A DNA stretch of 33,135 nt from Gammaproteobacteria bacterium. GTDB lineage: Bacteria; Pseudomonadota; Gammaproteobacteria; Eutrophobiales; Eutrophobiaceae. Below are positions 1 to 16,210 of the stretch, one piece after another. The number at the start of each line of letters is the position of its first letter. Positions within the stretch are counted from its first letter, which is position 1. The stretch lies in assembly GCA_030835405.1 (NCBI GenBank), contig JAURPG010000029.1, positions 1 through 33,135 on the forward strand, in the 5' to 3' direction. Below the pieces are notes generated by a model. The model searched no databases, had not been told where the DNA came from, and saw only the letters and a list, made by a program, of their open reading frames with translations. The position numbers were made by a program, and so were the translations under genes.

Positions 1-611
1 ATCTGTGAACCAATATGACAATCTATGCCTACTACATTCACATTGACCATAGCGTTAGCCTGGTCAAACGCAATTTTGGCGTCCTGGTAGGCAATCCCAA
101 ATTTATTTTCTTTCAGACCCGTAGATATGTAAGGGTGTGTCAATGGGTCTACATCAGGGTTAATCCGCAGTGATACAGGCGCCCTGCAATGGAGCTCACC
201 CGCAACCTTATTTACCATCTCAAGCTCAGAAAGTGATTCAACATTAAGGCACTTCACGCCTACCTGTAACGCAGTCCGAATTTCATCGGGCGTTTTACCC
301 ACTCCGGAAAATACAACTTTACCAGGGTCGCCACCAGCCTTGATAACCCTTTGTAGTTCACCCACTGATACGATATCAAAACCTGAACCCAGCCTGGCCA
401 GTAAATTTAAAATAGCAAGATTGCCATTGGCCTTAACCGCATAACAAATGCAGTGTGATCTGTTTTTAAACGCCCCCTCGTAAGATTGCCATTGTCGCTC
501 AATCGCCGCTCGACTATAAACGTAACCGGGCGTGCCAAATTGCTTTTGAATTTCTGTAACCGCAACGCCTTCCGCAAACAAGGCCCCACCTAAGTATTGA
601 AAATCCTGCAT
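1..611 (-). CDS. lysA: Diaminopimelate decarboxylase, N-terminal part (runs off the window)
   Basis: LysA is the PLP enzyme that decarboxylates meso-diaminopimelate to L-lysine, the last step of lysine synthesis. About 203 residues are present; the family is usually about 415, so the C-terminal half lies beyond base 1. The sequence shows the alanine-racemase-fold barrel: CYAVKAN at residues 56-62, with Lys60 as the expected Schiff-base lysine, then SGVGKTPDEI, an INPDVDPLTHPYISTGLK stretch, and HIGSQ at the cut end. The ATG at 611 is only 3 bases downstream of the lptM stop, the usual lptM-lysA arrangement. Identification is secure; only completeness is unknown. Confidence 0.95.
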   Translation of the reverse strand, partial: MQDFQYLGGALFAEGVAVTEIQKQFGTPGYVYSRAAIERQWQSYEGAFKNRSHCICYAVKANGNLAILNLLARLGSGFDIVSVGELQRVIKAGGDPGKVVFSGVGKTPDEIRTALQVGVKCLNVESLSELEMVNKVAGELHCRAPVSLRINPDVDPLTHPYISTGLKENKFGIAYQDAKIAFDQANAMVNVNVVGIDCHIGSQ

Positions 612-12565: not shown

Positions 12566-13651
12566 ATGCCAAATTTCATAAACAGCAGCAATCCTCCTCA
12601 TGATATAAATCCAACGACCGGCATCCTGCTGACTAACCTGGGAACGCCTGAGGCACCTACCAGCGGAGCACTCAGACGCTACCTTGCAGAATTCCTAAAC
12701 GACCCCCGGGTCATAGAAACACCGAGATTGATTTGGTGGCCGATTTTGTATGGCATCATCCTGACCTTTAGACCCAGGAGGTCGGCTCATGCATACGGCA
12801 AGGTATGGACCGACAAGGGGTCTCCTTTGCTGGTCAATCTACAAACTCAGGCAAAGGCCCTTGAAACGGTCCTGGCTGATTCAGTGCCATTTTCATTTAA
12901 AGTTGAAATCGCCATGCGATACGGTGAACCTTCGATAAAAAATGCTCTGCGCAAATTACGAGAATCAAATATCCAGCGCCTTTTGGTATTCCCTCTTTAC
13001 CCCCAGTATTCTGCTACCACCACTGCGTCAACCTTTGATGCCATTACCAATGAGTTACAGAAGTGGCGGTGGGTCCCTGAGGTCAGGTTTATTTCTCACT
13101 ACCATGATGACCCTGGTTATATAACTGCCCTGGCATCAAGTATTCGTTCTCAATGGGACGAAAAAGGCAGACCGGAAAAACTGTTATTTTCTTTTCATGG
13201 CCTGCCAAAAAAGTATTTTCAATCGGGGGACCCCTACTTTTGTGAATGTCATAAGACTGCCCGCCTGGTGGCTAAAGAACTCAGCCTGGAAGACTCATTG
13301 TGGCAAGTTGCATTTCAGTCGCGATTTGGTCCCATGGAATGGTTACAACCCTATACCGATGTGGTCCTGGAAGCCTGGGCAAATGAAGGCGTATCAAATG
13401 TGCATGTGATCTGTCCGGGCTTTTCAGCGGATTGTCTTGAAACACTGGAAGAGATACAGATCCAGTATCGCAGTCTGTATCTCAAAGCAGGTGGTAAACA
13501 TTTTACTTACATCCCCGCATTGAATGACAAGCCCGATCACATTAATGCCCTGGGAACGATTATCACCCGACACTGTGCAGGTTGGGAGCAGCTTGAATGG
13601 GATAGTAAGCTGATCAATACACGTGCTGAGCAGATTCAGCATAAAGCTTGA
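12566..13651 (+). CDS. hemH: Ferrochelatase
   Basis: Inserts ferrous iron into protoporphyrin IX, the last step of protoporphyrin-dependent heme synthesis, at the inner membrane's cytoplasmic face. It is 361 residues. Hallmarks are TGILLTNLGTPEAPT (18-32), FPLYPQYSATTTAST (142-156), the active-site FSFHGLP with His211, and CPGFSADCLETLEE (283-296) with the conserved acidic residues. The C-terminus contains YIPALND. It ends one base from the 3' end of the convergent CULT gene. Confidence 0.97.
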   Translation: MPNFINSSNPPHDINPTTGILLTNLGTPEAPTSGALRRYLAEFLNDPRVIETPRLIWWPILYGIILTFRPRRSAHAYGKVWTDKGSPLLVNLQTQAKALETVLADSVPFSFKVEIAMRYGEPSIKNALRKLRESNIQRLLVFPLYPQYSATTTASTFDAITNELQKWRWVPEVRFISHYHDDPGYITALASSIRSQWDEKGRPEKLLFSFHGLPKKYFQSGDPYFCECHKTARLVAKELSLEDSLWQVAFQSRFGPMEWLQPYTDVVLEAWANEGVSNVHVICPGFSADCLETLEEIQIQYRSLYLKAGGKHFTYIPALNDKPDHINALGTIITRHCAGWEQLEWDSKLINTRAEQIQHKA

Positions 13652-13652
13652 T

Positions 13653-14051
13653 TTAATCTGTCTGCTGCTCCACCACACGGCCCTTGATTAATCCATAAAA
13701 TCTCGTTTCACCAGTGAAATACCATCCCAGATGTTCAAGGCATTGCTGACATGATGCGACCTGCCAGGCATAACCACTGAACCAGGAATGTTCTAAACAC
13801 GGTTCCCCCGCCACAATACAACCCGGGGCATTGGAATAACATACAAAGTGATAGGCAAATCCGGCGGGATTAACCTTACTGTATACCTGCCTGCCCAGTA
13901 CAGATATTCGTTGATCACGGGAGGTGATCAGCCGGTTACAAACATGACAGACCAACTGATTTGAGTTCTGTGCACCCATATCAGAATCTTCTTCGGTCAC
14001 GTTGATATCCGGGCTGATCCCGGTTCTGTCAAGGCAAAAAACCTTTAACAC
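13653..14051 (-). CDS. CULT-domain protein (bacterial cereblon-like)
   Basis: A single CULT domain, the fold that binds thalidomide and cyclic imides in human cereblon and in the bacterial protein MsCI4. It is 132 residues. Zinc ligands: CHVC (Cys35, Cys38) and CQQC (Cys101, Cys104). The ligand cage is EHSWFSGYAWQVASC (87-101) plus HLGWYF (107-112): Trp90, Trp96 and Trp110. The Trp spacing (6 and 14), the Trp-to-Cys spacing and the preceding His88 match human His378, Trp380, Trp386 and Trp400. There is no Lon domain, as in MsCI4, and no signal peptide. The long frame starts with GTG; an ATG at 13979 with a GAAGAAGA upstream would give 108 residues and keeps all key residues. The natural ligand of bacterial members is not settled. 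Confidence 0.9.
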   Translation of the reverse strand: MLKVFCLDRTGISPDINVTEEDSDMGAQNSNQLVCHVCNRLITSRDQRISVLGRQVYSKVNPAGFAYHFVCYSNAPGCIVAGEPCLEHSWFSGYAWQVASCQQCLEHLGWYFTGETRFYGLIKGRVVEQQTD

Positions 14052-14209
14052 TTTGATATTTAATTGATTTTACTCAAATTGTCGCATAGCGAACTCGTGT
14101 AATATGTCAGGTATAAGAATCTGCTTAATTTTGATATTTCCATTAAGTAGAATAGTAGATTATGAAAATGGCCTCATAACAATATATCAGGTCATAATTG
14201 AATAAAACC

Positions 14210-16210
14210 ATGAGCGGAAAAAAGAATATTATTCACTACCCCCTATGCCAGCTCATATTCCTGGCGATAGCTTGCCTGGTTACAAATCAACCAGTCAACG
14301 CCCAACAGGATATTGAACAGCAACGTAAGATATACCTGCAGGCACAAAAGGCTTTAAAGGCCGGTCAACTAACAAATTTTAAAAACCTCACCGGAACGCT
14401 ACTGGATTACCCCTTATATCCCTACCTGATTCATGACTACATCAGGCCCAGGATTTCAAGTATAGATAAGAAGGACATCATCCAGTTTCTGGAAAAACAT
14501 GATTACCTGCCAGTAGCCAATGACTTAAGAAAACAATGGTTAAGATACCTGGCGCGTACCGGCCAATGGCAAACCTATATTGACAACTATGTCCCCATGA
14601 ATAACACGGAACTTGAGTGTTATCAGTTACAGGCAAGAATAAAAACCAATAACACATCTTATCTGCTTGAAGATACCAGATCTGTCTGGTTAGTGGGTAA
14701 GTCTCAACCGGATATTTGTGATCCTGCATTTGCCCTCTTGTATAAGAGTGACTTCATGACATCCGAACTGATCTGGGAACGGATCCGGCTGTCCATGCAA
14801 AACAATGAATTAAACCTCGCCAGGTATCTTGCCGGAAAACTTGATAAGCCTGAACAGGAATGGGTAAACCGTTGGATCGCCACATATCGTAACCCTGCCA
14901 GGGGGACAAACAAACCTGGTTATGAAGACACTCCCCTGGCCAGGGAGATCCTCGCACAGGGAATGCGCCGATTGGCAGCCGCAAATGTGGATACCGCAAT
15001 TACACGCTGGAACGCTCTTAAACCTGAATATTCCTTTGATAAAGAACAAACCGATCAAATTGAAAGGGCGTTGGCGATTCGGTCTGTCATCAATAAACAT
15101 GAACGGTCCCAGGAATTACTGAATAATCTGGATAACCAGAATGTGGATGAGACTATCTTTCATTGGCGCTTGAGGGGCGCGCTGCAAAAAGAAGATTGGC
15201 AAACATTAATTAAATGGACAGAAGGCGAGCCGCCAGAAGAAGCTATCAAACTGAGATGGAAATACTGGCGTGCACGGGCATTGGAACAAACTGGCAGAAA
15301 AACTGAAGCCGATATGCTCTATCATGAACTGGCAGGGGAAAGAGATTATTACGGCTTTCTCGCAGCCGACAAGATCATGGCTGACTATGCCATCGCCCAT
15401 CGCTCCCTACCGGAAGACCTGGAAACCTGGAATAAGGTATCCACAAAACCCGCAGTTGAACGCGCTCGTGAGTTGTTTCATCTAGGCAATAAGTATTTCG
15501 CGCGAAGGGAATGGAATGCGGTGGTTGGTAAGCTGACAAATTATGAATTGCACATTGCAGCGATGATTGCAGCTAACTGGGGATGGCATGACAGGACCAT
15601 ACTGACCCTGGGTAGGGCAAAATCTTATGATGATCTTATCTTGAGATTTCCTGTTGTATTTGAAGACCAGATGACCAAGTATTCTGAGATGCGCGGTCTG
15701 GACCTGGGCTGGATGTATGCCCTGACCCGTGCGGAAAGTGCATTTATGTCTGATGCCAGATCACCCTCTGGTGCATTGGGACTAATGCAGGTGATGCCGG
15801 CGACAGGTAGGGAGACAGCAAAGAAAATTAACTTCAGGACCTTTTATAACCGTTACCTGCTGGAACCTGATAAAAATATCACAATCGGAAGCGCCTACCT
15901 GAAACAAGTGTACGAACGATTTAACAATGTCATCCTGGCAACGGCAGCGTATAATGCCGGACCGAATGCTGTTGCAAGATGGGTCCCCATCGACGAATGT
16001 ATGGAACCGGACATCTGGGTTGAACAAATTCCTTATACGGAGACCAGAAAATATGTCGCCAGGATCATGTTTTTTGCCACCATCTATGATTGGCGGTTAA
16101 AAAATAAAATTACCAGAATTAACCAGCGCATGACGGGTATATCCCCCCGGACCCAGGTGGCCTCTTCCGGGTTGTCCTGTCCTGCAGCTGCAAACGTATC
16201 AGGGTTATAA
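14210..16210 (+). CDS. slt: Soluble lytic murein transglycosylase Slt (Slt70 type)
   Basis: Periplasmic enzyme that cleaves peptidoglycan between MurNAc and GlcNAc, forming anhydro-MurNAc. It is 666 residues from the ATG; an in-frame TTG at 14198 with a possible AGG upstream would add four. A signal peptide (about 1-32, ending PVNAQ) is followed by a long helical superhelix typical of the Slt U-domain, a linker, and the C-terminal lysozyme-like domain. That domain has ALTRAESAFMSDARSPSGAL with catalytic Glu509, then GLMQVMPATG and ATAAYNAGPNAVARW. The epimerase gene follows after 5 bases. Confidence 0.95.
   Translation: MSGKKNIIHYPLCQLIFLAIACLVTNQPVNAQQDIEQQRKIYLQAQKALKAGQLTNFKNLTGTLLDYPLYPYLIHDYIRPRISSIDKKDIIQFLEKHDYLPVANDLRKQWLRYLARTGQWQTYIDNYVPMNNTELECYQLQARIKTNNTSYLLEDTRSVWLVGKSQPDICDPAFALLYKSDFMTSELIWERIRLSMQNNELNLARYLAGKLDKPEQEWVNRWIATYRNPARGTNKPGYEDTPLAREILAQGMRRLAAANVDTAITRWNALKPEYSFDKEQTDQIERALAIRSVINKHERSQELLNNLDNQNVDETIFHWRLRGALQKEDWQTLIKWTEGEPPEEAIKLRWKYWRARALEQTGRKTEADMLYHELAGERDYYGFLAADKIMADYAIAHRSLPEDLETWNKVSTKPAVERARELFHLGNKYFARREWNAVVGKLTNYELHIAAMIAANWGWHDRTILTLGRAKSYDDLILRFPVVFEDQMTKYSEMRGLDLGWMYALTRAESAFMSDARSPSGALGLMQVMPATGRETAKKINFRTFYNRYLLEPDKNITIGSAYLKQVYERFNNVILATAAYNAGPNAVARWVPIDECMEPDIWVEQIPYTETRKYVARIMFFATIYDWRLKNKITRINQRMTGISPRTQVASSGLSCPAAANVSGL

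Follow-up and report, generated by a model that had tools for sequence, protein, structure and literature searches.

We have analyzed a small gene from a 33,135-nucleotide stretch of gammaproteobacterial DNA (contig JAURPG010000029.1; hereafter the window) and found that its product is truly a small bacterial protein related to the thalidomide-binding part of human cereblon. Our main reading, to which we give a probability of about 0.9, is that this is a soluble, zinc-stabilised protein made of a single CULT domain, with three tryptophans in an aromatic cage that, by extension from MsCI4 and human cereblon, would bind a cyclic imide or ureide ring. The gene occupies positions 13653..14051 on the minus strand, begins with GTG at 14051 and encodes 132 amino acids; the first-pass annotation had placed a CULT protein here without giving its strand. 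There is one copy in the genome.

Family identity and predicted fold

A phmmer search against PDB sequences matched the single-domain bacterial protein MsCI4 (PDB 4v32) with an E-value of 9e-21 and human cereblon with one of ~1e-14, so that the match to known CULT proteins is significant. In an AlphaFold2 model built on an alignment of 33 homologues, the CULT core (residues 28-132; 13656..13970, minus strand) is predicted as a beta-tent, with a pLDDT of ~97 across residues 31-130. MsCI4 ranked first when this model was compared with known structures by Foldseek and VIA-align, with Z of 18-19 and an rmsd of 0.8-2 A across ~100 residues in most of the comparisons. Human cereblon was second (Z ~17.6, rmsd 1.4 A), with model residues 30..131 lying on CRBN 318..427. 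The superposition on these two proteins, which had been proposed as a check at first pass, thus agrees with the sequence matches (Z 19 for MsCI4). The VIA-align register places model residues 31..131 on MsCI4 20..123, and the cage geometry described below is read from the superposition and this register, not from measured side-chain distances. Yippee-Mis18 (PF03226), a related beta-tent zinc fold, scores 20 bits, below the curated Pfam cut-off of 26.6, and the protein is not assigned to that family; CULT and Yippee are known as kin, and the sub-threshold match fits this kinship. An NCBIfam search with the protein gave no match.

CULT is the only domain of the protein, which comprises the core and a mostly polar, predicted disordered tail; no signal peptide was apparent on reading the sequence. 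An ORF of 132 residues has neither the fused LON domain nor the DDB1-binding region of the cereblon CRL4 receptor, and the MsCI4-like, single-domain architecture supposed earlier is borne out. The protein does display the features of the bacterial CULT family, namely the sequence match, two CxxC motifs, three cage tryptophans and a predicted beta-tent fold. As such, it is an ordinary family member.

The first-pass statement that the protein lacks a Lon partner holds for a fused or stand-alone LON domain, neither of which was found in the window's genome, but not for Lon itself: one full-length Lon protease (G000:C73), the only LON-domain match, is encoded on another contig. The four other genomes of the genus (G001-G004) likewise encode Lon protease and lack the stand-alone LON-domain protein of most other members of their taxonomic family. 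A split cereblon with a separate LON partner was rejected as a dependency, since the genus has no stand-alone LON and CULT-negative relatives often have one.

Zinc and cage residues

The predicted zinc ligands form two pairs, C35-x-x-C38 (13938..13949, minus strand) and C101-x-x-C104 (13740..13751, minus strand). The cage segment, H88-S-W90-F-S-G-Y-A-W96...W110 (13722..13790, minus strand), corresponds to human H378/W380/W386/W400, and its spacing of 88/90/96/110 (+2, +6, +14) is that of human 378/380/386/400. Zinc pairs and cage spacing are both as the first-pass annotation had them, and the register on MsCI4 agrees: H88, W90, W96, W110 and F112 align with F77, W79, W85, W99 and Y101. Sequence comparison and structure prediction together establish the predicted fold and its cage residues. 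The published MsCI4 pocket is formed by Trp79/85/99, equivalent to human Trp380/386/400, and ligands there hydrogen-bond to the main chain at Phe77 (human His378) and Trp79, with one extra hydrogen bond from Tyr101 (PMC8900816). At the base of the cage, residue 112 is Phe as in human cereblon, in contrast to Tyr101 of MsCI4; the window protein could therefore be a naturally occurring substitute for the engineered Y101F construct of MsCI4.

The four cysteines, W90, W96, W110 and F91 do not vary across two alignments, of 33 and 47 homologues, whose mean column identity is only ~35-37%. Such invariance among divergent homologues argues that the pocket, and not the fold alone, is under selection, with drift in the remainder of the protein. 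At another position, Tyr57 (13881-13883, minus strand) stands in place of a His kept in at least 90% of homologues, that of the nearest congener among them.

A conserved motif in the N-terminal tail

Residues 1-27 (13971..14051, minus strand) form a predicted disordered tail, a low-confidence region of the model, that carries the motif F5-C6-L7-D8, with C6 situated 29 residues ahead of the first zinc cysteine. Most homologues have about 25-35 variable, predicted disordered residues in this region. A pattern of a hydrophobic residue, Phe or Leu, and one of Asp, Lys, Arg, Asn or Glu, placed 27-33 residues ahead of the cysteine, is present in 24 of the 28 homologues from the window's taxonomic family (shuffle mean 2.3) and in 18 of 44 from elsewhere (shuffle mean 2.6, maximum 9 in 3000); these figures overstate the significance of the motif, because the pattern was written after all tails had been viewed and the sequences share ancestry. 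The instance in the window is CLD at 29, and counts of the pattern at other positions are at background. The possibility that the motif adds a strand to the fold found no support, as residues 1-30 have pLDDT near 50 in two models; in the second of these, of a relative with a strong tail motif, the motif is again undocked. A short motif at a fixed distance, in a tail that is otherwise variable and predicted to be disordered, suggests that it may serve as a docking peptide. MsCI4, with only ~24 residues before its first zinc cysteine, cannot hold the motif in the same place, which makes the tail a concrete place to look for function.

Ligand and role

One bacterial cereblon-type protein has become a workhorse of drug design. 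In the mechanism that we propose, the three tryptophans would enclose a cyclic imide or ureide ring of five or six members, with the backbones of residues 88 and 90 making the contacts that hold it, as the equivalent residues do in MsCI4. In its natural role the cage would read cyclic-imide ends (C-terminal aspartimide or glutarimide) on damaged or processed proteins and peptides, and the bound ends would be handed on by way of the N-terminal tail, or sequestered. We offer this role tentatively, by analogy with human cereblon, for which C-terminal cyclic imides are an established class of degron and ligand (PMC11974815, PMC13001092); they arise via backbone cleavage at Asn or PCMT1 (PMC11974815). 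PCMT-family matches occur in the window's genome, and PCMT was set aside as a pathway marker because it is found in 56 of 58 genomes and is thus uninformative. Against the role, neither a protease nor a repair or imide-processing enzyme was found to recur beside CULT among the selected neighbours annotated. In Kistimonas asteriae an amidohydrolase gene (L002:6522-7658) closely follows CULT on the same strand, an arrangement seen once; Pfam places the product in the amidohydrolase superfamily and nothing finer. It may resemble isoaspartyl dipeptidase, an enzyme that would be in keeping with aspartimide as a ligand. Carriage of CULT is sporadic, at ~8% of the class and phylum genomes sampled, and this counts against a role in reading protein ends, since cyclic-imide damage is expected in every cell.

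Small cyclic compounds such as uridine are a close rival to cyclic-imide protein ends as the ligand. CULT could sense or scavenge uracil, uridine, hydantoin or succinimide with no relation to protein ends, which we regard as possible though doubtful. MsCI4 binds uracil and uridine (PMC4287342) and has been crystallized with deoxyuridine (4v31), and the 2015 family paper prefers a widespread ligand, reasoning from conservation and against a linear motif (PMC4287342). However, among the selected neighbours annotated at 75 CULT loci, no pyrimidine or imide catabolism genes recur.

A more specific form of the protein-end reading, and an unlikely one, would make bacterial CULT an adaptor like ClpS: the cage would bind cyclic-imide C-termini of broken or aged proteins while the tail motif docks an AAA+ protease or repair enzyme. 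The comparison with ClpS is an analogy of function and implies no kinship. If the reading is true, bacteria would have a C-degron pathway that deals with damaged proteins, a forerunner of the role of cereblon.

Gene neighbourhood

The CULT gene is flanked by a convergent hemH (ferrochelatase; 12566..13651, plus strand), with 1 nt between its end and the stop codon of CULT, and by a divergent slt (soluble lytic transglycosylase; 14198..16210, plus strand). With these orientations, CULT is probably transcribed alone on its own transcript; a promoter and terminator scan over 13600-14260 found none. The GTG start is favoured over an internal ATG at codon 25, because the upstream sequence meets an in-frame stop just 6 codons before the GTG and the tail motif, which precedes codon 25, is kept.

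Neighbourhoods were compared at the 75 CULT loci by gene clustering, with Pfam run on selected neighbours. Within the window's taxonomic family, the loci follow a common row: slt, a TauE/SafE permease gene on the CULT strand, CULT, sometimes DUF1499, then YjbQ (UPF0047), DUF427 and hemH. Among the 29 family loci, slt adjoins CULT in 27, a TauE gene immediately precedes CULT on its strand in at least 18, yjbQ is nearby in 17 and DUF427 in 14. At two more loci (L032 and L038) TauE had been masked by ORF picking and was recovered by tblastn. The window's locus lacks TauE, YjbQ and DUF427, and elsewhere in the genome there are a DUF427 gene and, for TauE, only a weak match. The neighbours had been thought at first pass to give no obvious clue. 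This was incomplete with regard to the conserved slt and to the fuller row of the family, which is mostly absent from the window. Outside the family the neighbours vary and include BatD (4), rhodanese (4), FIST, FHA-AAA, DUF819 and CoA-binding genes, among others; the rhodanese-domain genes, at loci L130, L138, L141 and L144 of the wider phylum, directly follow CULT.

This conservation, together with the rhodanese genes after CULT at four loci outside the family, could mean that CULT is a functional partner of the TauE/SafE-YjbQ-DUF427 row, for example by gating or feeding an exporter of some cyclic or sulfur-containing compound. We consider this quite unlikely. Across 37 family genomes, CULT and TauE occur together in 16, CULT alone in 8, TauE alone in 7 and neither in 6 (Fisher p 0.49, with related genomes treated as independent), and this lack of co-variation already weakens the idea. 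The corresponding counts for CULT and DUF427 are 16/8/4/9, with a p of 0.047 that is uncorrected for two tests or for phylogeny and is not relied on. Moreover, the window's genome and a congener (G002) carry CULT without a close TauE homologue, another genome (G007) retains the whole row with only a relic of CULT, and outside the family the row is mostly missing. Given the relic and the lack of any link between its occurrence and that of the permease, CULT is an optional passenger of the row and not an obligate partner; the row is probably not a functional unit of which CULT is a required part.

Distribution and loss

The CULT gene is present in 33 of 96 relatives; samples from the class and the phylum have it in 29 of 369 and 21 of 249 genomes, respectively, all whole-genome sampling being within Pseudomonadota. 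An exact peptide-pattern scan of genome contigs found three close relatives only. In the genus it is missing from 3 of 5 genomes, where the slt-hemH gap is ~100-150 nt and contains no CULT match. In G007 the TauE/SafE, YjbQ and DUF427 genes are intact and CULT is reduced to a pseudogene relic of its last 21 codons and stop (WLFSNDEYFYGLIRDRLTNAV; L157:3498-3569, minus strand) between TauE/SafE and YjbQ. This relic and the CULT-less loci of the congeners indicate that CULT is an optional gene, outside the core functions, and that its loss has happened repeatedly. Within the family, the conserved synteny speaks for vertical inheritance. An origin from a mobile element was dismissed, as no relative was found in plasmid, phage or viral-contig collections. 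A syntenic family whose closely related genomes differ in this way, some with the gene, some without it and one with a relic, is another concrete place to look for its function.

That the window's gene is itself a decaying remnant without present function is very improbable: its absence from most of the genus, its faster divergence between congeners (52% identity, against 75% for hemH) and its Tyr57 would fit decay, but the frame and the zinc and cage residues are intact, the tail motif is retained, and the 52% identity to the nearest congener's protein is free of gaps.

Comparison with known CULT proteins

Bacterial CULT proteins are already described, having been known since 2014/2015, mainly from delta-proteobacteria, with few from alpha- and gamma-proteobacteria and one from a spirochete (PMC4287342). 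The present additions are the gene neighbourhood, the repeated loss in relatives and the tail motif. MsCI4 (MGR_0879, cereblon isoform 4 of Magnetospirillum gryphiswaldense; PDB 4v2y, 4v32, 5amj) shares with the window protein a single CULT domain, two CxxC motifs and three cage tryptophans in register, at about 38-40% identity and Z of about 19. The two differ at the cage base, Tyr in MsCI4 and Phe here, and in the shorter tail of MsCI4. Human CRBN 318-427 agrees with the window protein in fold, cage, zinc residues and the Phe at the cage base, whereas the LON domain and DDB1-binding region are found in human cereblon only. For the classical IMiDs, the cage and binding modes are common to MsCI4 and human cereblon (PMC8900816).
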